From contig NZ_RHNY01000013.1 of NCBI RefSeq assembly GCF_003946345.1, forward strand, positions 1 through 64,000: DNA of 64,000 nt, read 5' to 3'. The stretch comes from Levilactobacillus tongjiangensis. Its GTDB lineage: Bacteria > Bacillota > Bacilli > Lactobacillales > Lactobacillaceae. Below the pieces are notes generated by a model that saw nothing but the letters and a program-made list of their open reading frames with translations, was not told where the DNA came from and made no database searches. Position numbers and translations under genes: made by a program. Shown in pieces: positions 19,565 through 63,276 of the stretch; positions within the stretch are counted from its first letter, which is position 1; every line of letters begins with the position of its first letter.

Positions 19565-19747
19565 GCCGCCAGTTGGCCGGATGAACGTCTGCTGTGGGGA
19601 CCGGAGCAAGCCGTAGGGCGGTCTTGCTCCTCGACTTGAAGCCTCCCGAAAATCACGCGAGTCTTCAAGCTCGTCCCATGCAGTAAGCTGGTAGTTCACC
19701 AGCTAACTGCATCGACACAGCCGTCGCTCACCCGGCCAACTGCCGGC
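19565..19747 (+). repeat. R1 repeat, copy 1 (full length, best-preserved)
   Basis: Reference copy of the dispersed structured repeat. The outer stem pairs 19565-19597 with 19714-19747; both arms contain AGTTGGCCGG or its complement. Inside are three hairpins: GAGCAAG/CTTGCTC closing the constant loop CCGTAGGGCGGT; CTTGAAG/CTTCAAG; and ATGCAGTAAGCTGGT/ACCAGCTAACTGCAT (14 of 15 pairs). It lies after the phosphatase gene. The rest of the 19529-19955 gap shows no gene. Confidence 0.88.
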
Positions 19748-19955
19748 TATGATTGCGATTGGATTAATTGGGGTTTAATGGGTTTTATCATGTTTACCAA
19801 AGCAATTATGATTTATAAAATTGATTGTTTAAATCCAAGGACTGGTTGTCACTTTATGTGGCAACCAGTCTTTAGATTTAAAATAGGTAGTTGAGAATTT
19901 TTGAGAGCCTGAATGTGGTGGCATTCAATATTGTTTGATTTGATGTGCCATCTCA

Positions 19956-20129
19956 GCGGAGGTGTTCCGGGCGGCACCTACCGTGAAGGTGGTGTTAACT
20001 GGTGGTCTTCCAGTTTACAGCACGGGCGCTTTTGAAGACACGTGGTTTGCGTGGCTTCAAAACGAGCGAGAAGCCCGATTTTTGGCTGAAGCGTCCCCAC
20101 GGGTAGGCGTCCGCCCGGAACACCGGAGC
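19956..20129 (-). repeat. R1 repeat, copy 2 (inverted)
   Basis: Outer arms share GGTGTTCCGGGCGG and its complement. The third hairpin is TGTTAACTGG/CCAGTTTACA. Constant R1 strings such as GTCCCCAC and TTCAA are read on the minus strand. It lies 208 bases from copy 1 in opposite orientation. Confidence 0.82.
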
Positions 20130-20177
20130 GTCGGAGCGCAATTGACTTTCCCAATTCACTATCTAGGAATTAACTGC

Positions 20178-20217
20178 AAAAAAACACCCCGCTACATAAA
20201 TAGCAGGGTGTTTTTTA
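20178..20217. terminator. Bidirectional terminator
   Basis: AAAAAACACCCTGC-type arms (AAAAAACACCCCGCTA with TAGCAGGGTGTTTTTT) give T-runs on both strands. It terminates the small minus-strand gene at 20233. Confidence 0.85.
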
Positions 20218-20232
20218 GGTTGAGACAGCCGG

Positions 20233-20448
20233 TTACTTCTTGAGGTTTTCTTCAACGTAAGAACGGACTTCTGCGTCTGACTTAGCGTCGACTTCCTTCA
20301 TAGAAGCTTCAGTTTCATCGGTGTTGTGACCATTGGATTCCATGAAGTGGTCCCACAGAGCGTCCCGTACAGGTAACGAAGCATCGGACCAGTCAAATAC
20401 TTCACTCATTTTTTCATCCAATAAAGCAGTCTTTTCTACAACAGCCAT
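20233..20448 (-). CDS. Small acidic protein of unknown function
   Basis: 71 residues (MAVVEKTALLDEKMSEVFDW ...), acidic, with no membrane segment or Cys. The start at ATG 20448 has GGAGGT ten bases upstream. The C-terminal half (DAKSDAEVRSYVEENLKK) is predicted helical. It is monocistronic with its own terminator. I do not recognise the family. Confidence 0.7.
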   Translation of the reverse strand: MAVVEKTALLDEKMSEVFDWSDASLPVRDALWDHFMESNGHNTDETEASMKEVDAKSDAEVRSYVEENLKK

Positions 20449-20658
20449 AACCAATTACCTCCAAATAAAAATTGGGGTCAGCGGTTTGTGTTACTGGCAT
20501 ATGCCACCGGCTTCAACTTTTATGGTAGTCCTTTTATGAGGAAATGGTAAATATTTTGTTCAACCGGTTTCACGCGAACGTTGATGGGTAAAATAAAAAC
20601 CGGCATGATAGATGGCATAATCACTGGCCGGACTGATGTGAGGAAGTAGGGAAAGTGA

Positions 20659-20876
20659 ATGAAGCATCATAAACCTGGGAAAACCAACTTTGATATCAGC
20701 GAAGTCTCTTTAGGAACGTGGTAGTCAGGTTCCCAATGGGGGATCTGTTTGATGAAACTGATGCCCAGAATACGTTAGTGACAGCCTATGATGTGAATGT
20801 TAATTTCTTCGATACAGCCGACATTTATCAGGATAGTCACAGCGAACAGACACTAGCCAAATTGGTTAAAGACTAA
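20659..20876 (+). pseudogene. Truncated aldo/keto reductase remnant
   Basis: Starts with MKHHKPGKTNFDISEVSLGT, typical of the aldo/keto reductase N-terminus, then meets TAG. After a frame change it resumes as DETDAQNTLVTAYDVNVNFF and DTADIYQDSHSEQTLAKLV, containing the DTADIY motif (normally DTADVYG), before stopping. Only about 70 of the roughly 300 codons remain. Confidence 0.8.
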
Positions 20877-20892
20877 GCAGATATTTCAATAA

Positions 20893-21276
20893 TTAGGCTA
20901 CTTGTAAGTCTAGGACCCAGTTGTCAGCCTGCTTATTTCCGTTGATAACGGTGGGATCCGTGACGAGGTCCTCATTGACCTTAACCACAGTTCCTGCGTA
21001 AGGAGTTTTGAAGTTTTCGACAGCCTTGTCGCTCTCAACCTCTAAGATGTCATCTCCGGCGGCTAAGACGTCATCTGCGAGGATTGGCAGGTCAGCAAAG
21101 CTAATGTCACCAATCTGCTCTAAAGCGTCGCTAGCGAGCCCTAAGCGGTAGTGCCCCTGGTCTCGCATTTCTAGCCAAACGCCATCTTTGACCGTTACAG
21201 TCGGGGTGCTGGCCGTGTGCTTGCCACGGAACAGGTTCATGAGTCGTTGCCAAAATGATTGTGGGTGTTCAGTCAT
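20893..21276 (-). CDS. gcvH: GcvH-like lipoyl-domain protein
   Basis: 127 residues, with a short basic lead (FWQRLMNLFRGKH) and then a lipoyl/H-protein fold: VWLEMRDQGHYRLGLA, DISFADLP and DILEVESDKAVENFKTPYAG. The Lys of ESDKAV is in the lipoylation position. It is divergent from a lipoate-protein ligase 156 bases away, so the ligase probably loads it. No glycine cleavage P, T or L genes are present here, so it may be a lipoyl carrier or donor with another role, as in other GcvH-like/LplA pairs of Firmicutes. Confidence 0.85.
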   Translation of the reverse strand: MTEHPQSFWQRLMNLFRGKHTASTPTVTVKDGVWLEMRDQGHYRLGLASDALEQIGDISFADLPILADDVLAAGDDILEVESDKAVENFKTPYAGTVVKVNEDLVTDPTVINGNKQADNWVLDLQVA

Positions 21277-21432
21277 CGTGTATTCCTCCCTAATGTCATT
21301 GATAGAATCTAGTATACGCTTTAGATGTAACCGCTGACAACAACTTGCTCATGGCACCGTTTATCAGTTGTTGGGCCTGAGGGCTTATGCTAAACTGAAC
21401 TTAATTTAGTCACAGCGAAGGGAGAGTCACCC

Positions 21433-22470
21433 ATGTTTCTAATTGATACGAATCGCCAGGGACAGGTCGTCACGGACGCTATTGTGAATCAGTCAATCGA
21501 CAATTACTTGGTCAATGATTTGAAATTACCAGGACACGGTTTGATGATGTACGTCAATCAGCCAGCCGTTATTGTGGGTATCAATCAAACCGTCACGATG
21601 GAGGTTGATTTTAAGTATTTGGCCAAGCACGACGTTCAGCTGGTACGGCGGACGTCAGGTGGTGGCGCAGTCTATCACGACGAACGTAACCTGATTTTTG
21701 AACACATTATTAATGGTGATCCACAAGATGGGTCCAAATTTGGGGACTATACGGTTTTTGCCCAACCAATCTTGCGAGCACTGACGGCTATGGGGGTGCA
21801 GAACCCGGGAATCAGTAATAAGAGTGCCCTCGTCGTTGACGGCAAGAAGTTCTCCGGGATGACAATGTTTAAGAATGGGGATGGCTATGCCGCTGGCGGG
21901 ACGATTATGTACGATTTAAACGTTGACGCCGCACACCAAGCCTTACTGCCGGCAAGTGACAAGCCACACCGAGGCGTGGATTCTAACCGCGTAACGATTA
22001 CGAATCTGCGGCAGTACTTGGCACCGGAATATCGTAATCTAGATATTCAAGAATTTAAAGAGGCACTCCTATGTCATATCTTTGAAGTCGATAACTTGAA
22101 CGATATTGAGACTTATCATTTGAGTTCGCATGATTGGGAAGTTATTGATCAACGTCTAGCTGAAAAATATGATACTGACGCGTGGAATTATGGCGCTAAT
22201 CCTGGTTTTCGTGAGTATCGTAAACTTGAATTGGCAACGGGGGAATTACATTTGAACTTTACCCGTCACGCTGACAAGTTCCGGACGATGGCCTTGTTTG
22301 GGACAGTTGGGACGCCCACAGAACTAGCTGAGATCGCCGAACAGTTGGTAGGCGTGGCAACAACTTCAGCTGCCGTTAAGGCCGTACTAACTCAGCCAGC
22401 AAACAGTGCCATTTTAGGGGCGGATGCTATCTTGCCAATTGTCACGGCACTCACGGAGGTGGCTGAATGA
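21433..22470 (+). CDS. lplA: Lipoate--protein ligase
   Basis: Activates lipoate with ATP and transfers it to a Lys of lipoyl domains. 345 residues: RRTSGGGAVYHDERNLIFEH (lipoate/ATP loop RRTSGGGAVYHD), NKSALVVDGKKFSGM with the catalytic Lys in DGKKFSG, and a C-terminal accessory domain from about 250. GAAGGGAGAG precedes the ATG. It overlaps the next small gene by four bases. Confidence 0.93.
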   Translation: MFLIDTNRQGQVVTDAIVNQSIDNYLVNDLKLPGHGLMMYVNQPAVIVGINQTVTMEVDFKYLAKHDVQLVRRTSGGGAVYHDERNLIFEHIINGDPQDGSKFGDYTVFAQPILRALTAMGVQNPGISNKSALVVDGKKFSGMTMFKNGDGYAAGGTIMYDLNVDAAHQALLPASDKPHRGVDSNRVTITNLRQYLAPEYRNLDIQEFKEALLCHIFEVDNLNDIETYHLSSHDWEVIDQRLAEKYDTDAWNYGANPGFREYRKLELATGELHLNFTRHADKFRTMALFGTVGTPTELAEIAEQLVGVATTSAAVKAVLTQPANSAILGADAILPIVTALTEVAE

Positions 22471-22787
22471 AGGCTAAGTATGACGTGAATCAGTACGTCG
22501 GGGTACCAGTGGCTGCGAACGCCTCTGGCCAGTATGAAATTAAACGAGAACCGGATGGCGATTTTAAATTACACTCCTGGCGCACAGGACGGCACAGCAA
22601 GGGAAAGTATCGCGGTGTTGGCCAGATTTTCCTGACTGAAAATGGTCTGAAGGTGGCAGTGGTTGCAGCTTATCCCGTTGCATATAAGGATCGTCATGGG
22701 TTCACGCCTATGCAGCGGCTCACTAGTGAATTCGTCAGTGATGCCGTGGTACAACTCGCTACCGAACATTTAGACGGCAAGCAGTAA
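22467..22787 (+). CDS. Conserved-looking small protein coupled to lplA
   Basis: 106 residues, basic, no membrane segment; it opens MKAKYDVNQYVGVPVAAN. The ATGA overlap with lplA suggests translational coupling. I do not recognise the fold; FKLHSWRTGRHSKGKYRGVG suggests a nucleic-acid or cofactor-contacting surface, but that is a guess. Confidence 0.75.
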   Translation: MKAKYDVNQYVGVPVAANASGQYEIKREPDGDFKLHSWRTGRHSKGKYRGVGQIFLTENGLKVAVVAAYPVAYKDRHGFTPMQRLTSEFVSDAVVQLATEHLDGKQ

Positions 22788-22805
22788 AAACAGAACTGGG
22801 TGTCG

Positions 22806-22976
22806 TCTCCGGTCGCCAGGGAGGTGTTCCGCTGTGGGGACCGGAAAAAGCCATAGGGCGGTCTTTTCCCTCGGCGTTAAGCCTCGGTAAGTTCAAACGC
22901 CGTCCCACGCTGTAATTTGGCTCAGAACGCCAAATAACACGGTTGTCACTGCGGACCACCTCCTTGACGGCCTCCA
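22806..22976 (+). repeat. R1 repeat, copy 3
   Basis: Outer arms around GAGGTGTTCCGCTGTG and CACTGCGGACCACCTCC. Hairpin 1 is GGAAAAAG/CTTTTTCC-like with the constant loop CCATAGGGCGGT; hairpin 3 is ATTTGGC/GCCAAAT. It lies between convergent lplA-unit and oppA genes. The rest of the 22788-23176 gap shows no gene. Confidence 0.85.
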
Positions 22977-23176
22977 ACTTATATTGTGGGTGATGGCGGC
23001 TAATGTTTGAAGCGGCGGTGGATAAGGTTGTGTTAAGTAGTCACGGCTTATGGTGGGACTTACGACATAGCTGAATACACAACGACTTAAAGTCAATATT
23101 GTGAGCGAACTGTCGAGGAAAATCAGTCGTTTATCTGTGAGATTGACGCTTAGAGTAATTGCGGCCAATATAAACA

Positions 23177-23214
23177 AAGAGAGGATTCGCCACATAGCGG
23201 GTCCTCTCTTTTAA
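23177..23214. terminator. Terminator between R1 copy 3 and the second oppA gene
   Basis: AAAGAGAGGA and TCCTCTCTTT arms with T-runs on both strands; it ends the minus-strand lipoprotein gene. Confidence 0.8.
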
Positions 23215-23243
23215 ATTGGTTTTTCGACTAAAAATAGGTCAGG

Positions 23244-24905
23244 TTATTTCACAAAGTAGGCTTCCTTAAAGTTGGACTGCGTCCCCACGGTGTTATATTG
23301 CACGCCGTTTAGCTTAGGATTGACCAAGTACGTGCTGGCTGGTTGGAACAGTGGTGTGACACCTTGGTCCTGCATTAAGCGGCTCTCAGCAGCTAGCAGA
23401 GTCCGCCATCGCCGATTGTTAAATGACGGAGCGTTGCTAGCCTGCGCGATGAGCTTATCGTACGCGGCACTGGACCAGTGTCCTGTGTTGGCCATGTTGG
23501 AGCTCGTGAAGAGGGCCAGCATGGCTAGAGGATCGGCGTACTGGGCGTGTTGCGTGGCCAATGTTAGGTCGGTGTTGGTTGGACCATCTGATTGATTGAC
23601 GGCCCACTCGCGAGATTTGAGCTTGATGGTCAAGCCAGGTAGCTGGGTAAGTTGGCGTCTCAATTCTTTTGCCACCTTGAGACTGTAAGGAGCGTTGAGG
23701 TAACTCAAAGATAGGGTGATGTTCTTGACGTCCGCTCGGCGACGAGCCGTTTGCCATTCTTGTTTGGCCAACCTAGGCTGATAGGCCAAGGTTTTCTGCT
23801 TGGGTTGGGCAGCGGCAAAGTCCGCCGTTCCTTTTTGCCCGCGGCTTAATCCGGCTGGGACGACACCTTGAGCCGGGAGCGAGGTCACACCATATGAAGC
23901 TTGTCCCAACTTTTTTCGATTCAGAATATGGGAAATGGCTAGGCGGGCCAGTCGTTGCTGCAACAACTGGTTAATGCTTGGGTTCGGTCCCTGCTGGCGG
24001 TAATTTAAAATGACCATCTTGGAGTAGGGCCGTGCAGTATAAGCCGTCTGTTTCTGATATGATTTAATGTTTTGCGTGGAGACTAGCCGCACTTCATCTA
24101 ATCTGCCCTTGCGGTAATCTTGCCACATGCTGGCCGTGTTGTTATAGACGTCAACGTTGATTCGTTGAAGGTACACGTGTTGTTTGTCCCAGTAGCGTGG
24201 ATTGGGCACCATGTGCCAGTGAGTCTTAGTATTACCTTGCGCGGCGACCATAAATGGGCCGGCGTAGACTTGGTATTGAGGTTTAGTGGCATATTTTTTG
24301 CCGTATTTTTCAGCGATCCTTTGATTTTGGGGGCCAAACAAGGGGTAAGCTAAGCGCTGGGGCAGTTCGGCCATAGGATGATCAAGGTGAACCACCAGTT
24401 TGAATTTGCCGGGAGCTGAGACGCCTAACTCACTGGCGGGGAGTTTACCAGCAAGAATTTTGCGGGCGTTGTGAATCCCTGTAAAAAGGTCGGCGTTAGG
24501 GGCCTTGGTCTGTGGCGCTAAAGCCCGTTGCCAGGAGTAAACGAAGTCCTTGGCAGTGATGCGGTCGCCATTGCTCCAATAGGAATCCTTCCATAACGTA
24601 AACGTATAGGTCGTTTTACTGGCATTGATCTTGACCTTTTGTGCGAGCGCTAGTGCCGCTTGTCCATTATCGGCAGTGGTATAGAGACCCTCAATCGTAT
24701 TATTTAAGCGGCCAAATTCAGTCATTTTATCCGTGTCTAAAGTGGTTAACGGCCGGCTAGTAGCTAGTGTTACCACCTGCTTTTTGGTCATTACCCCTTG
24801 ACTATCGCTGGTTGAATCTGCTCGCTGACTAATGCTGCAACTAGTCAGGCCGAGACAGAGCAATCCCAGACATATAACGAGTCCCCATCGTTTCACATTT
24901 ACCAC
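23244..24905 (-). CDS. Second oligopeptide-binding lipoprotein (OppA type)
   Basis: 553 residues. Signal peptide with lipobox LTSC near residue 23. It shares many strings with the first OppA: LTAKDFVYSWQRAL-like ITAKDFVYSWQRAL, FTLWKDSYWSNGDRI, AYPLFGPQNQRIAEKYGKKY, and YAGPFMVAAQ. The C-terminus VQYNTVGTQSNFKEAYFVK parallels the first copy. It has no Cys leader and stands alone without permease genes, so it is an orphan binding protein serving a transporter elsewhere. Identity to the first copy is moderate, suggesting an old duplication with a changed ligand. Confidence 0.88.
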   Translation of the reverse strand: MVNVKRWGLVICLGLLCLGLTSCSISQRADSTSDSQGVMTKKQVVTLATSRPLTTLDTDKMTEFGRLNNTIEGLYTTADNGQAALALAQKVKINASKTTYTFTLWKDSYWSNGDRITAKDFVYSWQRALAPQTKAPNADLFTGIHNARKILAGKLPASELGVSAPGKFKLVVHLDHPMAELPQRLAYPLFGPQNQRIAEKYGKKYATKPQYQVYAGPFMVAAQGNTKTHWHMVPNPRYWDKQHVYLQRINVDVYNNTASMWQDYRKGRLDEVRLVSTQNIKSYQKQTAYTARPYSKMVILNYRQQGPNPSINQLLQQRLARLAISHILNRKKLGQASYGVTSLPAQGVVPAGLSRGQKGTADFAAAQPKQKTLAYQPRLAKQEWQTARRRADVKNITLSLSYLNAPYSLKVAKELRRQLTQLPGLTIKLKSREWAVNQSDGPTNTDLTLATQHAQYADPLAMLALFTSSNMANTGHWSSAAYDKLIAQASNAPSFNNRRWRTLLAAESRLMQDQGVTPLFQPASTYLVNPKLNGVQYNTVGTQSNFKEAYFVK

Positions 24906-25087
24906 TCCGTTATCTATGTAATATCTTCTCTGATAATAGGGGAGTCCCGGGGTGGCGTCAAGCGTTGCTGGGCCGTTAGCTTGTCGTGGCTAGTGAAATT
25001 CGCTAGAATATAAAAATTAAGTCTTGGTTCCTAGGAGCGGCATTGCTAAACTGCTGGCCGCTTGGAACCACTAAAGGAGGTCGTAGG

Positions 25088-26227: not shown

Positions 26228-26294
26228 TTTCAGTTCGACACGAATTGCTGTATTATCTAGTTAACACAACGCTTAGATGAGGGAGTGACGAGTC

Positions 26295-26615
26295 GTGCAA
26301 ACGATTTTCGATGTATTAAAACATATTTCTGTCAATCACCAAGAGGTTGAGAGCCAGCAAGTCGTCATCACCGATGCTGCCGGTAAGCCCAATGGTTTGC
26401 TGACGGATTTATTACGAGATTTAATTAATAATGCCTTATTGTTCGTGACGTTGGCTGACATGGATTCGGCGCAAGACTTAATTGAACACTTGCGAACCCA
26501 CACACCATTACCAGCAGATGTTTTATCGGAGTACGGAAAAATTTTAACGGAAGTTTGCGATGGGTTGAATTTTGCACCCAGAAAGGGACTAATTGAACTG
26601 ATTGTTCGGCGATAG
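26295..26615 (+). CDS. Small protein of unknown function
   Basis: 106 residues, GTG start with GAGGGAGTG upstream. It is predicted helical (LLRDLINNALLFVTLADMD), with no Cys and no clear membrane span. It ends ten bases before the hydrolase gene, probably in the same transcript. I do not recognise the family. Confidence 0.7.
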   Translation: MQTIFDVLKHISVNHQEVESQQVVITDAAGKPNGLLTDLLRDLINNALLFVTLADMDSAQDLIEHLRTHTPLPADVLSEYGKILTEVCDGLNFAPRKGLIELIVRR

Positions 26616-26624
26616 GAGTTACTA

Positions 26625-27236: not shown

Positions 27237-27429
27237 AGGGTTGGACTAAATTTAATTCGGTTTTTTCGAACTTCCCATTTGCTATTCTGCGGAATACCTG
27301 TTATCCTATTGTTAATGTATTTATGGTTCGGAAGTTTTAAAGGCTCGACGTTCTTTAAGAATGGCTCCTTTTTACCCCAGCTTTCAAATGCAAATATTAT
27401 TGCGCTATGCGCATGGAGGTTTCATTCTT

Positions 27430-27633
27430 ATGGAACAAGGTACTGTTAAATGGTTCAACGCTGATAAAGGTTACGGCTTCATCACTTTGGAAAACGGCTC
27501 AGACGTTTTCGTTCACTTCTCTGCTATCAACAGTGAAGGCTTCAAGACGCTTGAAGAAGGCCAACACGTATCCCTTGATGTAGAACAAGGCGACCGTGGC
27601 CCACAAGCTGCTAACGTTTCGGTTGTTGACTAA
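27430..27633 (+). CDS. csp: Cold shock protein (CspA family)
   Basis: 67-residue single-strand nucleic acid chaperone. It opens [18 protein letters not shown] with RNP1 (KGYGFI) and RNP2 (VFVHF). Start ATG 27430, with GGAGG about 11 bases upstream. The preceding 190 bases hold no gene and look like the long untranslated leader usual for cold-shock genes. A strong terminator follows. Confidence 0.95.
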
Positions 27634-27656
27634 TTTATTTTAGCCTAAATCGAGTT

Positions 27657-27694
27657 AAAAAAACCATCGACTGTGTGTCGGTGGTTTTTTTTGT
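27657..27694 (+). terminator. Terminator of the cold shock gene
   Basis: AAAAAACCATCGA and TCGGTGGTTTTTT arms with a T8 run, 24 bases past the stop. Confidence 0.85.
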
Positions 27695-28041: not shown

Positions 28042-28045
28042 ACAA

Positions 28046-28226
28046 AAAGTGAGTGTGACCAAAGGCGGTTAGGCAATGAGCATTAACGTCGATAGACGAA
28101 TAATCCTGGTCTTGGATTGTTTGTCTATCGGGGTTAAGCGGAGTTGACTACCTTGGGTCACACGTTTCGACTATATATGTTCGGAATACAAAAAAAGGTC
28201 TGAGACTTTTGTCCCAAACCTTTTTA
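28046..28226. repeat. R2 repeat, copy 2
   Basis: Nearly identical to 9150-9327. The inner stem CGATAGACGAATAATCC/GGATTGTTTGTCTATCG and outer stem GTGTGACCAAAGG/CCTTGGGTCACAC are both intact; the outer stem pairs better here than in copy 1. It ends in a bidirectional terminator (AAAAAGGT..ACCTTTTT). It lies between the cytochrome b5-like gene and a convergent tRNA gene. Confidence 0.88.
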
Positions 28227-35243: not shown

Positions 35244-35369
35244 ACATAACAGTATTCAGAGTGGTGAAGGCGCAGGTCTTCACCACTTTTTAGTTGCTCT
35301 GCTAAAGGTTGAAGAATAAATTTTTTGTTTTAAATTAGTATTTGAAAAATGGATACTGCTAAATTCACA

Positions 35370-35543
35370 CTCCGGTGGTCAGGAATTCCGCCTGCTGTGG
35401 GGACGCTTCAGCCAAGGGGCGGGCTTCTCGCTCGATTTGAAGCCACGAAGAACCTGTGTCTCCAAAGTCGCCCGTGTTGTAAGCTGGCAAAAATCACCAG
35501 CAAACACCACCTTCACAGCTGGCTGCATCCCTGACCACCTCCG
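35370..35543 (+). repeat. R1 repeat, copy 5
   Basis: Outer arms GGTGGTCAGGAATTCCGCC and the region ending CTGACCACCTCCG. Constant strings GCTGTGGGGAC and TTTGAAGCC are present. Hairpin 3 is GTGTTGTAAGCTGG against CCAGCAAACAC. Confidence 0.85.
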
Positions 35544-35645
35544 TTTTTTGATTGTGGTTTGTCATGGTGAACGCTGAAAGATTTCTTGCGACACGTATGC
35601 AGCCTTATAGACAGCAGATTAGTTGGCAACAAAATACTTTGTAAG

Positions 35646-35799
35646 CCGAGAGGTCGCCAGATATGGGCTCAGGCGCGTCGTTCTGCTTAGTTAGTCGGTG
35701 TTTTTCCGACTGACTTAGCTGAAGACCAAGCTTGGAGACTCGGGGCTTTCGAGGCTTCAAGTTGTGTCCGCACCGTTCCAGCCCATATCTGGCGGCCGG
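35646..35799 (-). repeat. R1 repeat, copy 6 (inverted, diverged)
   Basis: Outer arms GCCAGATATGGGCT and AGCCCATATCTGGC are perfect. Hairpin 3 is CTTAGTTAGTCGG/CCGACTGACTTAG. The hairpin 1 constant loop is poorly kept, so this is a diverged or partly deleted copy. The flanks at 35545-35645 and 35800-35940 show no gene. Confidence 0.75.
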
Positions 35800-35958
35800 T
35801 AAGGCGGAAGGGACATACTAGGTTGCCTAGTATTGTTTCTATATCCGACTTTATGGGCTTTTAAAAGTTCTCAACCTTCAGTTGTTCTAGAAAACGGTCG
35901 CTCGCAAGGCCTTTTTAAAAAGTGTTATGATTAAAAACAAGAGGAGTGATTGATAAAC

Positions 35959-40696: not shown

Positions 40697-40770
40697 ACCA
40701 TCTCCATGTTTCCCAGTTTACCATCTCTGTTCTGAGAATTAAATCTTATCGAGTGACTAATATTACTGTG

Positions 40771-40883
40771 CTCCGGCAGCCCGGGCCGAAACCAGCCGTG
40801 GGGACCGGAGCAAGCCGAAGGGCGGTCTTGCTCCTCGAGTCAACGCCACTGTCACGGTTAGTTTCGTCCCAGGCTGCCTCCGA
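40771..40883 (+). repeat. R1 repeat, copy 7 (internally deleted)
   Basis: Outer arms near CTCCGGCAGCC and GGCTGCCTCCG, with intact hairpin 1 (GGAGCAAG, loop CCGAAGGGCGGT, CTTGCTCC). Hairpin 3 is missing; the element is about 113 bases. Confidence 0.82.
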
Positions 40884-41121
40884 CTTAGATTGTGGTCGTT
40901 ACACGGAATTAGCTGGTGGTGTCATAATAATACTGAGCAGCAATTCGGAGACGTAGGGGTTGGGTAATGTTTATGAAGTTAGACACAGTAGGTCTTAATT
41001 AATAGCGTACTCTGTTTACATTTGACCCAAGGGAAACGTATTATGGCCAACTTAATGTTGGTAACCGTATTGCTTTTCACGTTGGCAGAGGACGCCAGGT
41101 TGGATTTAGTTCAGGATTTTA

Positions 41122-41307
41122 GCCGGAGGTCGTCAGGGAGGGGCGGCTGTGTCGATGGTGTTAGGCCGGGCGGTTGGTTTTCCCCGGTCTTACAGCATGG
41201 GTCGAGCTTGGAGACCCGCGGTTTTGGCGGGGCTTCAAGTCGAGCCGAAAGACCGGTATTTGGGCTGAAGGCGACCCCACAGCGGCCCCTCCCTGGCGGC
41301 CGTAGGC
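41122..41307 (-). repeat. R1 repeat, copy 8 (inverted)
   Basis: Outer arms GTCAGGGAGGGGCGGCTGTG and CACAGCGGCCCCTCCCTGGC pair almost perfectly. Hairpin 3 is ATGGTGTTAGGCCGGG/CCCCGGTCTTACAGCAT. It lies 240 bases from copy 7 in opposite orientation. No gene is supported in 40697-41353. Confidence 0.87.
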
Positions 41308-41353
41308 GGACAATCTTGACGTATGTTAATAAGCAAAGGAAGCGAATGAGACC

Positions 41354-42899: not shown

Positions 42900-43350
42900 A
42901 CGGTTAGGCTTAGACAGCTAAAGGTGAAAGCACTGACACTCACTGTGCCTGATATAACAAGGATTGACTGTTAAGATTTAGTCAGACATAGTGGGAAATT
43001 GTCGCCTTACCGTTCGCCAAATTTGGACCGGAACGCGGTGGGGAGGACGGGACAAGCCTAAAGGCGGTCTTGTCCCTCGCTTGAAGCCGCAAAGCACGTC
43101 TTCAAGTCGCCATTTTCAAGAAATTCACTTGAAAATCTCACGGCTGAGTCCAAATTTGACTCACTCTCAGCTACCTAAGAGAGTGCCAATATTATTGCGT
43201 GTCATTCAGGCATGTAAGCTAGCTTAGTTTCCAAGAACCTGTTTAACGGGAATTTCTGACAGCTGCAGGCGGCTGATTGAGACTAAAGTCTATAACGCCT
43301 ATCGATTCTTGGCTTGAAAACGTTCTTTGAACTTTCTAACTTTTAGTTAG
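42900..43350 (-). repeat. R3 repeat, copy a (interrupted by R1 copy 9)
   Basis: Read on the minus strand, its pieces match 47165-47560 in the same order: GTTATAGACTTTAGTCTCA, CTGTCAGAAATTCCC, GTTAAACAGGTTCTTGG, ATGTCTGACTAAA and CAATCCTTG. Between 42990 and about 43211 it carries an extra 220 bases including R1 copy 9 that is absent from copy b. No gene is found in the stretch. Confidence 0.75.
43012..43162 (+). repeat. R1 repeat, copy 9
   Basis: Outer arms CCAAATTTGGACC and GAGTCCAAATTTG. Hairpin 1 GGGACAAG/CTTGTCCC with loop CCTAAAGGCGGT; hairpin 2 TTGAAG/CTTCAA; hairpin 3 ATTTTCAAG/CTTGAAAAT perfect. It sits inside R3 copy a. Confidence 0.85.
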
Positions 43351-43355
43351 ACAGC

Positions 43356-46862: not shown

Positions 46863-47044
46863 CGCCGCTAGTGGTCAGGCAACTCCGCCTGTGGGACCGT
46901 CTAAAGCCTGTGAAGCGGTCTTTAGACTCGACTTTAAGCCTCAAGAACCGTGAGTCTTAAGGGTCGTCCTAGTCCTGTAAGACCCAGAAAACCACTCGGG
47001 CTAACAGGACCTTCACGGGCTCCGTACCTGACCACTAGCGGCTC
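46863..47044 (+). repeat. R1 repeat, copy 10
   Basis: Outer arms CCGCTAGTGGTCAGGCA and TACCTGACCACTAGCGG. Hairpin 1 GTCTAAAG/CTTTAGAC with loop CCTGTGAAGCGGT. Hairpin 3 TCCTGTAAG.../...CTAACAGGA. Lies just after the MFS gene. Confidence 0.86.
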
Positions 47045-47080
47045 AGATAGTCGTCACAGTCTGTTTGTTAGATGGACCGT

Positions 47081-47164: not shown

Positions 47165-47560
47165 TTGTAAGACTAGAGGTTGAAAGTTCCAAAACCATTA
47201 TCAAACCAAGAATAGTAAGGCATTATAGACGTGAAATTAGTCTCACCCAGCCACCTGCGGCTGTCAGAGATTCCGCTTGCTGTGGGGAACGCCTACGGCC
47301 TGAAAAGCGGTCCTTCGGCTCGGTTTGAAGCCTGGAAAAACCACCAGTCTCCAAACCCGTCCCACGCTGTAAGCCGAAAATCGGCTAACACCGTCGACAC
47401 AGCAGGCTCCACCTCTGACCGCTTCCGGTTAAACGGTTTCTTGGAATCTAAGCCAGCTTGAATGTCTGACTAAACACCAATACCCAATCCTTGCTGTATC
47501 AGGAATAGTGAGTGTCTCAGTGCTTTCAGCCTTTAGTTGTAAGCCTAATGTTGAAAGCTT
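47165..47560 (+). repeat. R3 repeat, copy b (contains R1 copy 11)
   Basis: Inverted counterpart of 42900-43350, about 4 kb away. Collinear blocks are GCATTATAGACGTGAAATTA, CTGTCAGAGATTCC, then R1 copy 11 interior, GGTTAAACGGTTTCTTGG, ATGTCTGACTAAAC and CCAATCCTTGC. Copy a lacks the R1 interior at this point. No coding gene. Confidence 0.75.
47252..47428 (+). repeat. R1 repeat, copy 11
   Basis: Outer arms CTGTCAGAGATTCCGC / region GGCTCCACCTCTGACCG. Hairpin 3 TGTAAGCCGA/TCGGCTAACA. The outer left arm is shared with R3 copy a, so either R1 inserted into R3 or copy a lost the R1 interior. Confidence 0.85.
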
Positions 47561-47703
47561 TGTATGTTAGTTAGGCTTGTTGTGACAACGATAGAGGTCT
47601 GAAAATTAAGAAACCACCCATTTTGAGCAAAAGTTGCTGCAATTAACCTGTTCGGGGTGTCGTACGTATGCTCTTCAGCGGCAATTATGCTAATGCAATC
47701 GTA

Positions 47704-47886
47704 GCCGGAGGTGGTCAGGGATGGCGCCCGCTGTGAAAGTGCTGTTAGCTGGCGTTTTCTCAGCCAGTTTACAGCACGGGCGACTTTGGAGACACGTGTT
47801 CTTCGTGGCTTCAAATCGAGCGAGAAGACGGGTGGTTTTCCAGTCTGAAGCGTCCCCACAGCGGGCAGAATCCCTGACCACCGGAG
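47704..47886 (-). repeat. R1 repeat, copy 12 (inverted)
   Basis: Outer arms GGAGGTGGTCAGGGAT and ATCCCTGACCACC-like (AATCCCTGACCACCGG). Hairpin 3 GTGCTGTTAGCTGGC/GCCAGTTTACAGCAC. Next to the SDR gene 3' end. No gene is supported in 46848-47950. Confidence 0.87.
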
Positions 47887-47950
47887 TGCGATCAATTTAG
47901 ACTAATTTAGGAATACCAGTGATCAAGTGTAGCCAAAGAAGGCCAGGTTA

Positions 47951-52474: not shown

Positions 52475-52488
52475 AGCGTTTCCGCGCA

Positions 52489-52661
52489 CTGCGGTAGCCT
52501 GAAGTTACGCTTGCTGTGGGGACGCTCCAGCCAAAGGACGGGCTTCCCGCTCGATTTGAAGCCACGAAATTCACGCGTCTGCAAAGTCGCCCATGGCCTA
52601 GGCTAGTAAAACACTAGCCAAAGCCATTTTCACAGCAAACTCCACTTCAGGCCACCTCCGG
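52489..52661 (+). repeat. R1 repeat, copy 13
   Basis: Outer arms CCTGAAGTTACGCTTGCTGTG and the region CAAACTCCACTTCAGG. Constant string GCTGTGGGGACGCTCCAGCC. Hairpin 3 ATGGCCTAGGCTAGT/ACTAGCCAAAGCCAT. Lies directly after the P-loop gene. Confidence 0.86.
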
Positions 52662-52896
52662 TTTAGGTGAGCGGTACGAATTTTATGTTGAGGTGTTCGC
52701 ATTATCCGTGGTATTTGTGGCAGATCAGCTGGTTCTAATTAGGCTTTATGGTAAGTTTGTTTAATGCAAGCGGTCTATGAATAGGAGGCTAGGCGTGAAA
52801 GCGTTGTGAGCCAAGCTTGTAGGTTCAAGAATTCTAGCGCTGTCCTTGTATCAGTTCCAGTTGATAACGGTTGTTGCTGTTTTTATCCGTCTAAGT

Positions 52897-52984
52897 CGGA
52901 GGCGGCCAGGGCTGGGCCTGGCTTCAAATCGAGCGAGAAGCCCGGTTCTCTCCCCACAGCAGGGCCCACCCCTGGCCGCCGGAG
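52897..52984 (-). repeat. R1 repeat, copy 14 (inverted, internally deleted)
   Basis: Outer arms CGGAGGCGGCCAGGG and CCCTGGCCGCCGGAG pair strongly but only 88 bases remain; hairpin 3 is gone. The stretch 52475-53002 has no gene. Confidence 0.8.
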
Positions 52985-53002
52985 CGCAAACGATATAAGA
53001 TA

Positions 53003-55962: not shown

Positions 55963-56033
55963 AAAAAAATTCCTCCTTATTCAAAACGTTATTAATTGTG
56001 TAAAGTTGAACTATTCGGTATGAGTATAACTAA

Positions 56034-56047
56034 TTATCAAATGATAA
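56034..56047. promoter_or_regulatory. Small palindrome in the acyl-CoA dehydrogenase/galM divergent region
   Basis: TTATCAAATGATAA, arms TTATCA and TGATAA, in an AT-rich stretch about 75 bases upstream of the acyl-CoA dehydrogenase start. Possible operator; the regulator is unknown. Confidence 0.35.
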
Positions 56048-56137
56048 GTCCAGTGAAAATGGTTTATTTTTACATATTTTCTAATTCCAAAATTATATAT
56101 CTGTGATTCTATTTATAGGTTAAAATGGTAAAAACGT

Positions 56138-56155
56138 TAGAAAAATTTTACTAAA
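56138..56155 (+). promoter_or_regulatory. Putative gal operator before galM
   Basis: TTAGAAAAATTTTACTAA, a near-palindrome (one mismatch) that shares TTTTACTAA with the galK operator at 61857. It sits just upstream of a promoter-like TTGGCC (56159) and TACAAT (56183). Confidence 0.5.
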
Positions 56156-56222
56156 ATGTTGGCCTTTAGAGCCCGAGTATTATACAATGAAACCGGATTC
56201 TTTTTTTGGAGGTGTGATTCAC

Positions 56223-57245: not shown

Positions 57246-57257
57246 GGAGAGATTAGA

Positions 57258-58991: not shown

Positions 58992-59001
58992 TATTTGGAA
59001 T

Positions 59002-59051
59002 AAAAAATGAGTCAGCGTGATAAATTTTTATCGGGCTGGTTCATTTTTTAT
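59002..59051 (+). terminator. Terminator of the galM-pgm operon
   Basis: AAAAATGAGTCAGC and GCTGGTTCATTTTT arms with a T-run. The stretch to 59370 has no gene that I can support. Confidence 0.75.
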
Positions 59052-59370
59052 TTAGTTTAGAAGCTGTCTATTTTTCAAATTAAATGGCACAGCCACTGAA
59101 ATGATTAAAGCGATACCATTTGGATAACATCGGGCTTCATCTCGTGAAGTAATTCATTTTGAATTGACCAGCCAATAACCACTGAATTAAAGTGAAGGTT
59201 ATAGAACCTATAATTCGAACAAATTGAACTGAAAGTGGGACCCAATAGGGACTTGTAATTTCTGTAAAAACTCTTTAGAATGTTTATGTGAGTTGCTTAC
59301 AAGGGCAACTAGCTTGATGAAAGTTAATTAGATTGTTAAAAAACATTCAAGGGATAAGAGGTAGAGATCA

Positions 59371-59616
59371 ATGGCTAAGAACAGTAAGAAGTTAACGTTA
59401 GACCCCGCTAAGTTTGCTGCTGCCGTGTTAGGTGGGAACGAACAACGCTCAGATGAAGAAAACAAGGTATACATCAAACGTCAATTGACGCTGTACTTGG
59501 AATCCGAACTGTTAGCGCAAGATTTCAACAACCTGGAAGAATCAGCTTTTGATATGGCCAAGTCCCAAAAGCGTGAAGAAGTCCTGTCTAAGATTATTGA
59601 ACACCGTTATCACTAA
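59371..59616 (+). CDS. Small paralogous protein, copy 1
   Basis: 81 residues, hydrophilic, mostly helical. Shares about two thirds of its residues with the protein at 60013: KLTLDPAKFAAAVLGGN, YIKRQLTLYLES, FNNLEESAFDMAKSQKRE, VLSKIIEHRYH. AGAGGTAGAG upstream. No known family motif. Context between pgm and a sugar symporter suggests a sugar-linked role. Confidence 0.75.
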   Translation: MAKNSKKLTLDPAKFAAAVLGGNEQRSDEENKVYIKRQLTLYLESELLAQDFNNLEESAFDMAKSQKREEVLSKIIEHRYH

Positions 59617-59671
59617 GCAGTGAATGGTGCCACTTTTTTAACGAAGTGGCGGGTAGATAACTGTGAAAATC

Positions 59672-59709
59672 AAAAAGGTACCGCACGATTTTGTGCGGTA
59701 CCTTTTTGG
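59672..59709. terminator. Bidirectional terminator between the small paralogues
   Basis: AAAAAGGTACCGCAC and GTGCGGTACCTTTTT arms, T-runs on both strands. Confidence 0.88.
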
Positions 59710-59927
59710 TTTCTTTGGAAATGACTTTTCAAAACGATGATGGCGAAAGTTAGCTTGAAAAGAGGGGATGGATGTGAAAAGGGTTTACTCGCACATTTAC
59801 TAAAATTTTTATCATCGAAAAAGCAACCGGTTGCAATGTGAACACGACAGGTAACCACGTTGTTTTAAGTGTATCAGTGAGCATTGAAAGAGGTTGCAAT
59901 TTTTTACGGATGTCCTTAGAATAACAA

Positions 59928-59945
59928 TGTAAAGCGCTTACATTT
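59928..59945 (+). promoter_or_regulatory. CcpA cre-like site
   Basis: TGTAAAGCGCTTACA, a 15-base palindrome close to the 14-base cre consensus, upstream of the second small paralogue and the symporter. Fits catabolite control of galactoside uptake. Confidence 0.55.
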
Positions 59946-60012
59946 AACTAAAACGTCAGCGCAGTTTTACCGGTCTAGTTAAACTATATTGGAAGATATG
60001 AGGTGTTTATAG

Positions 60013-60261
60013 ATGGCTGCAAAGCAGGATGACAAGATTACGTTGGATCCCGTTGAGTTTGCTTCCGCCGTATTGGGGGGCAACGCACAGAAGCCTGGTG
60101 AAGAGAATAAGTTGTACATCAAACGGCAACTGACCCTTTACTTGGAAGCAACGCTACTTGCTAAGGATTTCAATAGTCTTGAGGAATCACAATTCGATAT
60201 GGCTAAGGCGCAACAGCGTGAAGCGGTTCTTTCCAAGATTATTGAACATCGTTATCACTAA
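60013..60261 (+). CDS. Small paralogous protein, copy 2
   Basis: 82 residues; paralogue of the protein at 59371 (KITLDPVEFASAVLGGN, YIKRQLTLYLEATL, KIIEHRYH). Its own upstream region has a cre-like site, and it ends 56 bases before the symporter, so it may be co-transcribed with it. Function unknown. Confidence 0.77.
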   Translation: MAAKQDDKITLDPVEFASAVLGGNAQKPGEENKLYIKRQLTLYLEATLLAKDFNSLEESQFDMAKAQQREAVLSKIIEHRYH

Positions 60262-60317
60262 TGTTGTTGTGGATTAACTATCAGGGATAGAACCCGTTGA
60301 AAGGTGTGAAGGAAACA

Positions 60318-61745
60318 ATGGTTAAGCAATATCTATCATATGCTTTAGGGGCGTTCGGACATGATGCCTTCTACGCTACACTTAATACTTATTTTGCTAT
60401 TTTTGTTACTAGTGCCCTGTTCGTTGGAAACGGCGCGGCTGCTGAAGCCGGGATCGTTACCACGATGGTTGTTGTTATTCGGTTAGTTGAAATTGCTTTT
60501 GACCCGATGATTGGTGGGATGGTCGATAACACCAATACGAAGTTTGGGAAATTTAAACCCTGGATTTTAATCGGTGCCATCATCAGTTCCGTGGGGATTA
60601 TGCTGATGTTCTCCAGCCTGTTCGGTTTGGCTGACAGCAACACCTCGATTTACTTCCTGCTGTTCGGTATCGTGTTCGTGATTATGGATATCTTCTATTC
60701 ATTTAAAGATATTGCCTTTTGGTCCATGTTACCTGCATTGAGTGTTGATTCTAAGGTTCGTAACAAGTTTGGGACGATTGGTCGTTTCGGTTCAACCTTG
60801 GGTTCTCAAGGGGTTATCATTGTTGTTACCCCATTAGTTATCTACTTCTCACAAACCTTCTCAGGTACTCATGGTAGTACACAAACCCGTGCCGGCTGGT
60901 TAGGTTTTGCCATCGTCATTGGTTTGGTTTCCTTCCTGGGTGCTTTAGCAACCTTCTTTGGGACTAAAGAACAAACGAGTTTAATTCGTGAAAACACTGA
61001 AAAGACCCGTTTCCGCGATGTCTTCAAAGTTATTGGTGAAAATGACCAATTGATGTGGTTAGGGTTCTCATACTTACTGTTTGCCTTAAGCTACGTTGTC
61101 ACGAACTCACTGTTGATTTACTACTTCCGTTACGTTATCGGTAACGCTGCTGCTTATAGTTGGGTTGGGGTAATTACCGCTTGCTTAGGGATTATCTCAG
61201 TACCACTGTTCCCAATCATTGTTTCCAAGATTACTCGGAAGGGTGTCTACATTGGTGGGATTTGCATGATGTTAGTCGGTTACATTCTGTTTATGCTGGC
61301 TGGTACCAACACAATCATGATGTACATTGCCGATGCCATCTTCTTCTTCCCATACCCAATGATCTTCTTGGCTGCCTTGATGACAATCACTGATAGTGTT
61401 GAATATGGGCAATGGAAGAACGGTACGCGGAACGAATCCGTTACCTTGTCTGTTCGTCCACTGATTGATAAATTAGCTGGTGCCTTCTCAACTGGAATCG
61501 TTGTTATTGCCGCCGTTCACTCAGGAATGACTGGTAACGCCAAGCCTAGCGACATCACTCCTCACGGGATGTTCATCTTCCATTCATTCATCTTCTACAT
61601 GCCAATGATCTTATTGATTGTTGCTGCCTTGATTTACCAATTCAAGATCGTACTGTCTGAAAAGAAGCATGGTGAAATTGTACGTGAACTTGAAACGAAG
61701 TTGGAAACCGAAAAGGAAGAGGAAGAAGAATCCGAATCCAAGTAA
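60318..61745 (+). CDS. GPH-family sugar:cation symporter (galactoside/galactose)
   Basis: About 475 residues and 12 membrane spans, without the EIIA-like tail seen in LacS. Family strings: YALGAFGHDAFYATLNTYF, RLVEIAFDPMIGGMVDNTNT, FGKFKPWILIG and EYGQWKNGTRNESVTLSVRP. Start ATG 60318 with GAAGGA upstream. Sits before galK, so galactose or a galactoside is the likely substrate. No beta-galactosidase gene lies in the window. The tail is Glu-rich (KLETEKEEEEESESK). Confidence 0.9.
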   Translation: MVKQYLSYALGAFGHDAFYATLNTYFAIFVTSALFVGNGAAAEAGIVTTMVVVIRLVEIAFDPMIGGMVDNTNTKFGKFKPWILIGAIISSVGIMLMFSSLFGLADSNTSIYFLLFGIVFVIMDIFYSFKDIAFWSMLPALSVDSKVRNKFGTIGRFGSTLGSQGVIIVVTPLVIYFSQTFSGTHGSTQTRAGWLGFAIVIGLVSFLGALATFFGTKEQTSLIRENTEKTRFRDVFKVIGENDQLMWLGFSYLLFALSYVVTNSLLIYYFRYVIGNAAAYSWVGVITACLGIISVPLFPIIVSKITRKGVYIGGICMMLVGYILFMLAGTNTIMMYIADAIFFFPYPMIFLAALMTITDSVEYGQWKNGTRNESVTLSVRPLIDKLAGAFSTGIVVIAAVHSGMTGNAKPSDITPHGMFIFHSFIFYMPMILLIVAALIYQFKIVLSEKKHGEIVRELETKLETEKEEEEESESK

Positions 61746-61762
61746 TGCGTTAAAGTATCAGG

Positions 61763-61797
61763 GCCTCAGGTGAAAGTGCCTGAGGCTTTTATTTAAG
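61763..61797 (+). terminator. Terminator of the symporter gene
   Basis: GCCTCAGG and CCTGAGGC arms with loop TGAAAGTG and TTTTATTT. Confidence 0.85.
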
Positions 61798-61803
61798 GGT
61801 AAA

Positions 61804-61872
61804 GAAAGCGCTTCAAAATTAATTGACAAGGTCGCCAAAAGCGGCTATGATGATTGTAGTAAAGTTTTACTA
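61804..61872 (+). promoter_or_regulatory. galK promoter with cre-like site and gal operator
   Basis: GAAAGCGCTTCA (cre-like) at 61805, TTGACA at 61823-61828 and TATGAT at 61846-61851 (17-base spacing), then the perfect palindrome TAGTAAAGTTTTACTA at 61857-61872 near the expected start of transcription. Fits repression by a LacI/GalR-type regulator plus CcpA control. Confidence 0.65.
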
Positions 61873-61898
61873 AAAAATTTATTAAGGAGTTAATCGCC

Positions 61899-63068
61899 AT
61901 GGATTTCGCCAGCTTAGCATCTGAATACCAAGAACAATTTAACGTCGCACCAGAACGGGTCTTCTTCTCACCAGGACGAATCAATCTGATTGGTGAATAC
62001 ACCGACTTCAACGGTGGTCACGTTTTCCCAGCCGCCATCAGTATGGGGACTTACGCCGCATACTCAGCACGAGACGACAAGCAATTCCGCGTTTACTCCG
62101 CAAACGTTCCTGACGCTGGCGTATTGACGTTCTCACTGGATAACTTAGCCTTTAACAAGGCTGACAACTGGGCCAACTACTTGAAGGGGATGTTGTTCGA
62201 ATTAGCCAAGCAAGACTTGACCATCGATCACGGGTTTGACCTCTTCGTTCATGGGAACTTACCAGATGCTTCTGGTTTGTCCTCATCAGCTTCAATGGAA
62301 ATGTTGATGGGCGAGATTCTTCACGCCGCATACGGCATGAAGTTGGACGAAGTTGAAATGGTTAAGGTCGGCCAACAAGTTGAAAATGACTACTTCGGTT
62401 TGAACACCGGGATCATGGACCAATTTGCTATTGGTATGGGTAAGAAGGACCAAGCCATCCTCTTGGACACCAACACCATGGACTACGAATATGCACCCCT
62501 AGACTTAGGCGACAACGTCGTGGTTATCATGAATACCAAGAAGCGTCGTGAACTGACCGACTCCAAGTACAACGAACGGCGGGCACAATGTGAAGAAGCC
62601 TTACGTCGTTTGCAAACGAAGTTAGACATCAAGACGTTGGGTGACTTAAACGAAGATCAATTTGATCAAAACGCTTATCTGATCAACGATGAAACTTTGA
62701 TCAAGCGTGCACGTCACGCCGTCTTCGAAAACCAACGGACGTTGAAGGCCTTTGCCGCTCTGCAAAAGAGTGACTTAAAGAGCTTCGGTGAATTGGTCAA
62801 CGCTTCTCACATTTCCTTGCACTACGACTTTGAAGTTACGGGTAAGGAATTGGATACGTTGGTTGAAACGGCTTGGAAGCAACCTGGTGTCTTAGGTGCC
62901 CGGATGACTGGTGCCGGCTTCGGTGGCTGTGCCATTGCCATCGTTAAGAAGGCTAACGTTGAAGACTTCGAAGCTAAGGTTGGTAAGGTCTACGAAGACA
63001 CTATCGGCCATCCAGCAGAATTCTACGTCGCAGAAATTGCTGACGGTCCTGCCGAATTACAAAAATAA
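61899..63068 (+). CDS. galK: Galactokinase
   Basis: Phosphorylates alpha-galactose to galactose-1-phosphate. 389 residues: RVFFSPGRINLIGEYTDFNG (galactokinase signature GRINLIGEYTDFNGG), ATP loop ASGLSSSASMEMLMG, DQFAIGMG with the catalytic Asp, and MTGAGFGGCAIAIV. AAGGAG upstream. Confidence 0.96.
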   Translation: MDFASLASEYQEQFNVAPERVFFSPGRINLIGEYTDFNGGHVFPAAISMGTYAAYSARDDKQFRVYSANVPDAGVLTFSLDNLAFNKADNWANYLKGMLFELAKQDLTIDHGFDLFVHGNLPDASGLSSSASMEMLMGEILHAAYGMKLDEVEMVKVGQQVENDYFGLNTGIMDQFAIGMGKKDQAILLDTNTMDYEYAPLDLGDNVVVIMNTKKRRELTDSKYNERRAQCEEALRRLQTKLDIKTLGDLNEDQFDQNAYLINDETLIKRARHAVFENQRTLKAFAALQKSDLKSFGELVNASHISLHYDFEVTGKELDTLVETAWKQPGVLGARMTGAGFGGCAIAIVKKANVEDFEAKVGKVYEDTIGHPAEFYVAEIADGPAELQK

Positions 63069-63091
63069 CTTAATGGTTGTGGGTTAACACT

Positions 63092-63276
63092 TGCCTACGG
63101 CAGACAGAGTACCGCGCTGTGGGGTACCTCTGAAGCCTTGTAAAAAACACAAGTCTTCAAAGCGACTTGAAACCTCGAAGTACACGAGTTTCCAAGCTCG
63201 ACCCAGATTCTAAGGAAGCACAAAACACTTCCTAAGAATCTCGACACTGCGCGGCACTCTGTCTGCCTGCGGCTAG
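63092..63276 (+). repeat. R1 repeat, copy 15 (between galK and galE)
   Basis: Outer arms TACGGCAGACAGAGT and CTCTGTCTGCCTGCGG. Hairpin 3 is a perfect 14-bp stem AGATTCTAAGGAAG/CTTCCTAAGAATCT. The rest of 63069-63445 has no gene. It splits the galactose genes, giving galE a separate transcript or a structured spacer. Confidence 0.88.

Follow-up and report, generated by a model that had tools for sequence, protein, structure and literature searches.

A cloverleaf-like, REP/BIME-like repeat family of Lactobacillaceae that may act as folded DNA and is spread in part by IS4-type elements

Introduction

Interspersed palindromic repeats are common, and evidence for fixed copies that are constrained as folded DNA rather than as RNA is, to our knowledge, rare. 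Here, we describe a cloverleaf-like repeat, termed R, that was detected in a stretch of 64,000 nt (the window, bases 1-64000 of contig C5) from the 2.72-Mb, 43-contig genome of Levilactobacillus tongjiangensis (the source genome, G000). The explanation that we tentatively favor is that its two types, R1 and R2, make up a single interspersed DNA-repeat family of at least six Lactobacillaceae genera, which resembles repetitive extragenic palindromic (REP) sequences and bacterial interspersed mosaic elements (BIMEs), acts as folded DNA and is spread in part by miniature inverted-repeat transposable elements (MITEs) of the IS4 type. As far as we have found, the family is new; it did not turn up in our searches of the open-licence literature.

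The GTAG and CGTC types of REP and BIME come closest among described systems. Like R, they are high-copy intergenic palindromes that occur singly and in pairs and are suspected to be of mobile origin, and the CGTC REPs are also without a dedicated transposase (PMC3733652). REPs are palindromes of 20-40 bp, with a GTAG foot in the GTAG type, whereas R units measure 150-200 nt, contain two or three inner hairpins with fixed mismatches, have CTCCGG-like feet (CTnCGG / CTCCGGCT) instead of GTAG or CGTC and show no link to Y1 transposase genes. IS4-family MITEs provide the second point of comparison. A subset of R copies lies in elements that share 14-bp ends with a 1559-bp insertion sequence (IS), are flanked by duplications of 7-8 bp and carry no transposase gene, but what they enclose, two conserved structured units arranged as a pair, has no relation to the IS, and these ends are absent from 43 of the 65 R pairs. 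Integron attC sites and the hairpin ends of IS200/IS605 elements are folded single-stranded DNA (ssDNA) recognized by shape, with mismatches or extra bases marking the strand, and attC sites possess R''/R' core sites and recombine in an IntI-dependent manner; R differs by its three-hairpin architecture, and no integrase or TnpA partner was found for it, attC motifs not having been searched for. With the structured RNAs of 3' untranslated regions (UTRs) and intergenic DNA collected in Rfam, R has in common a covarying structure at gene ends, but it lacks an Rfam match, and its Levilactobacillus copies lack the excess of G-U pairs found in 6S RNA.

Results and Discussion

Architecture of the unit and fixed mismatches

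The family unit is a cloverleaf in which an outer stem encloses two or three hairpins. The R1 consensus of about 185 nt consists, in this order, of a foot CTnCGG, a long outer stem, the core GCTGTGGGGAC, hairpins 1 to 3, the closing strand CACrGC, the second arm of the outer stem and the foot CTCCGGCT, with hairpin 2 of the form CTCGAyTTGAAGCC...GTCTnCAAngTCG and hairpin 3 of the form TGTAAGnn...nnTAACA. A CTCCGG-like motif is present at both feet. The 5' boundary is sharp, conservation ending about 3 nt outside the unit, and the 3' side fades over about 30 nt. An outer stem with three inner hairpins had already been described in the initial annotation; the exception to it is the R2 subtype (about 150-170 nt), in which hairpin 1 is missing and which is frequently the second unit of a pair, with some R2-like units retaining hairpin 1 (e.g. 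window 43011-43170). By eye, the submotif AAGCC...GGTCTT/GTCTT is common to hairpins 1 and 2, each time with the C-T mismatch (for example in window 19608-19690), as if one of them had arisen from the other.

Mismatches within the stems are themselves conserved. The C-T mismatch of hairpin 2 occurs in 101 of 103 Levilactobacillus copies and in 34 of 36 gap-free rows that stem mostly from other genera (28 of their 30 source loci), and the A-A mismatch of hairpin 3 likewise occurs in 34 of these 36 rows. The pairs next to the C-T mismatch are near-invariant in Levilactobacillus and switch in the set from other genera (outer pair G-C in 26 and A-T in 9 rows, inner pair C-G in 19 and T-A in 16). 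Beside the A-A mismatch, the outer T-A pair is nearly fixed and the inner pair variable. The fold is retained across loci with G+C contents from 35 to 59%.

Divergence of fixed copies

Comparison of the source genome with L. yonginensis JCM 18023 (G010) yielded 41 pairs of orthologous copies, three of which were omitted as the composite lies in opposite orientation. In the remaining 38 flank-matched copies, some of which belong together as a pair, 6.2% of R sites are different (412/6693). The corresponding values are 10.9% for the 5' flank, into which a gene end often extends, and 21.1% (739/3504) for the 3' flank, which is the pair spacer where a partner exists; the latter is 3.4 times the value of R. 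R evolved more slowly than its 5' flank in 30 of the 38 cases and more slowly than its 3' flank in all 38, and fixed copies therefore look selectively maintained. Fourfold sites in the window are 78.1% identical between the two genomes. In the 29 pairs of full R1-type copies, 3.3% of reliable stem sites are different, and all counts of one-sided and two-sided changes are restricted to these pairs; of 23 two-sided Watson-Crick changes in an earlier count, 15 sit in two R2-type rows judged to be misaligned. Two further figures were not used, namely a split of divergence between stems and loops, which is biased by its folding step, and a general "intergenic" identity of 92.7%, which probably includes uncalled genes.

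Distribution

The source genome contains at least 150 copies, spread genome-wide and, among the matches listed, unevenly. All 150 scored candidates proved to be copies in both G000 and G010, as did 145 of 150 in G028, 136 of 150 in G015 and 138 of 150 in Companilactobacillus hulinensis. Matches are present in 34 of 35 Levilactobacillus genomes, most of which have at least 45, and in none of the 23 genomes that represent other families of the Lactobacillales. Of 395 genomes drawn evenly across this order, 22 had matches, belonging to six of 80 genera, all of them Lactobacillaceae; only six candidates per genome were scored with strict filters, and this figure is therefore a lower bound that does not provide copy numbers. 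A pattern derived from the repeat matched Levilactobacillus almost exclusively: among the matches listed, 79 of 80 loci belong to Levilactobacillus or an uncultured Lactobacillus metagenome-assembled genome and one to C. hulinensis. On contig C1 of G028, copies are clustered and separated by long copy-poor stretches, including the region syntenic to the window, as judged from the listed 150 of 281 matches for two genomes.

R1-type queries gave no match on plasmids and phages, and one narrow pattern matched nothing on viral contigs. An R2-type copy resides on two related MOBQ plasmids of Levilactobacillus brevis (L421 and L422, both at 2481-2634), 26 nt beyond the stop codon of a gene for an S8 peptidase; in one L. 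brevis plasmid record it is overlapped by a predicted gene on the opposite strand.

Arrangement relative to genes and terminators

All figures on stop codons, terminator sites and neighboring genes rest on our own greedy calls of open reading frames (ORFs). Neighboring copies less than 900 nt apart are convergent in 64 of 68 cases, on the same strand in four and divergent in none (some loci overlap and not all cases are independent), such that R, like BIMEs, forms inverted unit pairs in intergenic DNA, with the outer feet of convergent pairs facing the flanking genes. A gene on the same strand lies upstream of 86 of 132 copies, in 73 cases with no more than 160 nt between its stop codon and the 5' end of R; the geometry of convergent pairs accounts for part of this bias. 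Sense copies follow 65 gene ends within 250 nt, 30 of them within 60 nt. At these 30 gene ends, a terminator-like site is located after R in 15 cases and before R in one; at the 35 ends with R at a distance of 61-250 nt, it is located before R in 26 cases and after R in two. Such a site is also present at 105 of the 183 tandem gene ends without R and at 75 of the 102 convergent ones. Side-by-side R copies in the same orientation were noted at L306 4112-4588, L311 15286-15605, L321 10236-10596 and L054 6540-6992; the flanks of the copies at the latter three loci match each other at 92-100%, and these copies thus look like local duplications.

Copies in the window

A covariance model trained on 11 full window copies retrieved these 11 (133-182 bits) and four truncated or divergent ones between 19.5 and 63.3 kb, in both orientations; nine further matches concern the same sites on the opposite strand. 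The count of 15 copies in about 44 kb given in the initial annotation is thereby confirmed, and so are their intergenic position and their absence before 19.5 kb. The copies lie outside long ORFs, and several small mechanical ORFs overlap them. The copies and the MITE frames that enclose some of them are as follows:

19564-19753, plus strand: R1 copy, 168 bits, 36 nt beyond the stop codon of the gene that ends at 19528; the G010 orthologue has a 60-nt internal deletion
19949-20131, minus strand: R1 copy, 162 bits, convergent partner of the copy at 19564
22804-22984, plus strand: R1 copy, 140 bits, 17 nt from a stop codon
32604-32793, plus strand: R1 copy, 167 bits, 20 nt from the stop of an amidohydrolase-family gene
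35302-35881, unstranded: MITE frame bounded by terminal inverted repeats of the IS4 type (with 2 and 3 mismatches); flanks TTGCTCTG/TTGTTCTA, an imperfect duplication
35367-35551, plus strand: R1 copy, 182 bits, within the MITE frame 35302-35881
35639-35806, minus strand: R2-type partner without the first hairpin, 62 bits, in the same frame
40769-40890, plus strand: R1 copy, 65 bits, with a 66-nt internal deletion relative to G010
41116-41308, minus strand: R1 copy, 157 bits, convergent partner of the copy at 40769
42918-43346, unstranded: MITE with IS4-type ends; 8-bp duplication TTAGACAG at 42910-42917 and 43347-43354; G010 and G028 have an empty site here
43011-43170, plus strand: divergent R unit, R2-like but keeping hairpin 1, 43 bits, within the MITE 42918-43346
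46863-47048, plus strand: R1 copy, 133 bits, 16 nt from a stop codon
47173-47536, unstranded: MITE in shortened form, each of its IS4-type ends having 1 mismatch; flanks TTGTAAGA/TTGTAAGC
47252-47435, plus strand: R1 copy, 164 bits, within the MITE 47173-47536
47698-47889, minus strand: R1 copy, 166 bits, 62 nt away from the stop codon of a gene on the minus strand
52486-52668, plus strand: R1 copy, 168 bits, 12 nt from the stop of a PEPCK-like gene
52889-52986, minus strand: truncated partner of the copy at 52486, 30 bits; longer in G010
63092-63279, plus strand: R1 copy, 151 bits, 24 nt from the stop of a galactokinase-like gene

With up to one mismatch, GCTGTGGGGAC occurs ten times in the window compared with 0.9 expected, a number reached in none of 100 shuffles. 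The exact motif is present in only six of the 15 copies and the loop AAGCC..GGCGGTCTT is variable, so that the constancy originally ascribed to both motifs does not hold. At 31 of 48 predicted pairs, at least one window copy has a two-sided change that preserves pairing.

Mobility

Part of the family is carried by MITEs. The ends CTAAAGGTTGAAAG...CTTTCAACCTTTAG are common to three related pairs and two elements of the window, and exact versions were present in 15 of 34 genomes searched, all 15 being among the 21 Levilactobacillus genomes. In the DNA fetched, we found 53 distinct elements bounded by these terminal inverted repeats (TIRs; up to two mismatches), some of which are short and without R; 33 of them are flanked by exact repeats of 6 bp or longer, compared with 1.2 expected when partners are swapped. 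The MITE ends comprise 14 bp, the target duplications 7-8 bp, and a transposase gene is missing. The same ends border an intact element of 1559 bp in L. koreensis (JCM 16448, G019) with a perfect 8-bp duplication and a 450-aa transposase that matches NCBIfam NF049925 (IS4 family) with 470 bits. This element shares only its ends with the eight MITEs compared. TIR-bounded elements with R units occur in L. koreensis, too.

Both ends (up to four mismatches) are present in 12 of the 65 convergent pairs, one end (stricter cut) in 12 and neither in 43, two elements being in both of the former groups. IS4 carriage is thus one route and not the general explanation, and both TIRs shared with an autonomous IS and target-site duplications characterize only a subset of the family. 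Accordingly, the earlier idea of a REP/MITE-like mobile unit stands for that subset, with its TIRs, its target duplications, its IS4 relative and the clean insertion at 42.9-43.3 kb; 12 pairs inspected in loci of other genera revealed no obvious ends or duplications. Recognition by a transposase as folded DNA had also been considered. Fixed mismatches and the lack of a G-U excess fit recognition of folded DNA; a corresponding enzyme was not found. Losses among orthologous copies take the form of internal deletions and resemble deletions between stem arms. An empty-site search returned 23 candidates, and those listed (at most nine) resembled internal or larger deletions, with no clean excision among them.

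A search for a gene for a REP-associated tyrosine transposase (RAYT, or TnpA-REP) elsewhere in the genome had been suggested as well. Y1_Tnp is present in 23 of 35 genomes, is missing from the R-rich G002, G012, G017, G030 and G032 and is present in the R-less G022. Judged by presence and absence, with most intact Y1_Tnp frames spanning 140-160 aa, Y1/RAYT-type genes do not track the repeat, and mobilization by RAYT was rejected.

At three flank-matched copies (L212 3259-3649, L215 16135), the composite is in opposite orientation in G000 and G010, with R1 and R2 swapped, which suggests inversion or independent insertion at the same place.

It is conceivable that R is purely selfish, i.e. that it constitutes the structured interior or the ends of non-autonomous transposons, either IS4-type MITEs or ssDNA elements cut by a putative HUH-type enzyme, and that its constraint derives entirely from mobility. 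High copy number, MITE ends with duplications, the clean insertion in the window, the TIR-bounded elements of L. koreensis and the CTCCGG-like motif at both feet all point in this direction. Nonetheless, we regard it as rather unlikely: mobility alone does not explain why all 38 fixed orthologous copies diverged less than their 3' flanks, most pairs are without IS4-type ends, Y1_Tnp does not follow the repeat, and the IS4 element has nothing but its ends in common with the eight MITEs compared.

Pairing at the level of DNA or RNA

Structured RNAs tolerate G-U in their stems and do not tolerate A-C. In 289 distinct full R1 copies, 39 reliable pairs comprise 10676 Watson-Crick, 121 G-U, 236 A-C and 171 other combinations, compared with 1176, 103, 4 and 17, respectively, in 26 distinct rows of Levilactobacillus 6S RNA. 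This contrast is somewhat inflated, as RNAalifold served to choose the pairs in 6S RNA and as the cut at 85% Watson-Crick applied to R removes G-U-rich pairs. Without this cut, the ratio of G-U to A-C is 1.3 for R, compared with 26 for 6S RNA. One-sided changes between R1-type orthologues led to G-U in 26 and to A-C in 23 cases. A preference of G-U over A-C as in structured RNA is thus not found in the Levilactobacillus copies, and Watson-Crick pairing without an excess of G-U means that pairing looks maintained at the level of DNA complementarity.

A structured RNA made at gene ends, be it a 3'UTR or an antisense RNA element, had been suggested initially and is improbable in the light of these numbers. 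The cloverleaf fold, covariation, the position of 30 of 65 sense copies within 60 nt of a gene end and a slight surplus of G-U over A-C in 42 rows mostly from other genera (1464 Watson-Crick, 28 G-U, 19 A-C) speak for it. Against these stand the Levilactobacillus counts and the 26 of 35 gene ends at which a terminator-like site precedes a more distant copy, which would then lie outside the mRNA. Furthermore, Rfam at gathering thresholds matched none of the repeats in the whole window, in agreement with the initial remark that no fitting named family was known, and at E values up to 5 four loci returned only one weak miRNA row (E 1.1).

Covariation had been taken as proof that the fold is under selection. 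As described in PMC8794818, DNA hairpins can regain their pairing through template switching during replication, and covariation alone therefore does not imply selection. The covariation itself is present, and selection is backed by divergence and by the fixed mismatches; what falls is the inference from covariation alone. That template switching re-matches hairpin arms and explains covariation entirely without selection is very improbable. It correctly predicts Watson-Crick pairs without G-U excess, but it should erase fixed mismatches within stems, which persist across genera where neighboring pairs vary, and by our reasoning unbiased correction of arms should not reduce divergence, yet R is slower than its flank.

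Least probable of all is that R units serve between genes as bidirectional terminators or as substitutes for terminators. Their location after stop codons and the convergent arrangement of pairs would suit this role, and a terminator-like site elsewhere is less frequent at ends that have R within 60 nt (16/30) than at convergent ends without R, but this value is close to that of tandem ends without R, ends with R at 61-250 nt have such a site in 28 of 35 cases, and in place of a hairpin with a T-run only three weakly conserved Ts follow the unit in the 3' flank profile, which renders terminator substitution unlikely.

Other features of the window

A second repeat of 151 nt occurs at 9145-9295 and 28044-28194 (89% identical); its sequence is unrelated to R1 as far as seen. 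The DNA around 9145-9295 is missing in G010 and shortened in G028, and the repeat thus looks like another small mobile unit. A direct repeat of 243 nt (73% identity) is found at 59374-59616 and 60019-60261, 645 nt apart. An Rfam match to the cspA thermoregulator (27330-27691, plus strand, 88.6 bits) lies over a 90-aa ORF at 27361-27633.

Conclusions

If R is indeed a REP/BIME-like family of folded DNA, the unit would act as a hairpin or cruciform between transcription units, where a putative structure-specific host protein would bind it. Fixed copies would be kept since binding benefits the cell, for instance through local DNA topology, IS4-family transposition would be one route of spreading, and copies would be lost by deletion between stem arms. 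We infer both protein binding and the benefit to the cell. Several observations weigh against this reading. The A-A mismatch of hairpin 3 is found in only 87 of 103 Levilactobacillus copies, and when all 48 pairs in 179 copies are counted, G-U exceeds A-C (7578 Watson-Crick, 211 G-U, 162 A-C). Two-sided changes in R1-type orthologues are few (7 compared with 1.2 expected by independence), and the lower divergence of R could in part be due to mutational effects of hairpins. The family is dispensable as seen from its near-absence in G022 (no match) and G031 (one weak match), and of the copies at the nine window sites compared, G028 retains remnants at most. The 43 pairs without IS4-type ends show no duplication adjoining R above chance, and no binding protein or nuclease was found.

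A bolder version is doubtful though conceivable, namely that R represents a host-maintained cloverleaf DNA code, with more than 100 fixed sites per genome in Levilactobacillus and Companilactobacillus and relatives in at least four further genera, in which selection acts on folded DNA including the exact mismatches and which is read by a dedicated protein organizing transcription units or chromosome topology. The family offers, in food bacteria that are harmless, more than 100 natural sites per genome with no sign of a link to RAYT, and close species pairs allow constraint, loss and IS4-driven spread to be measured directly.

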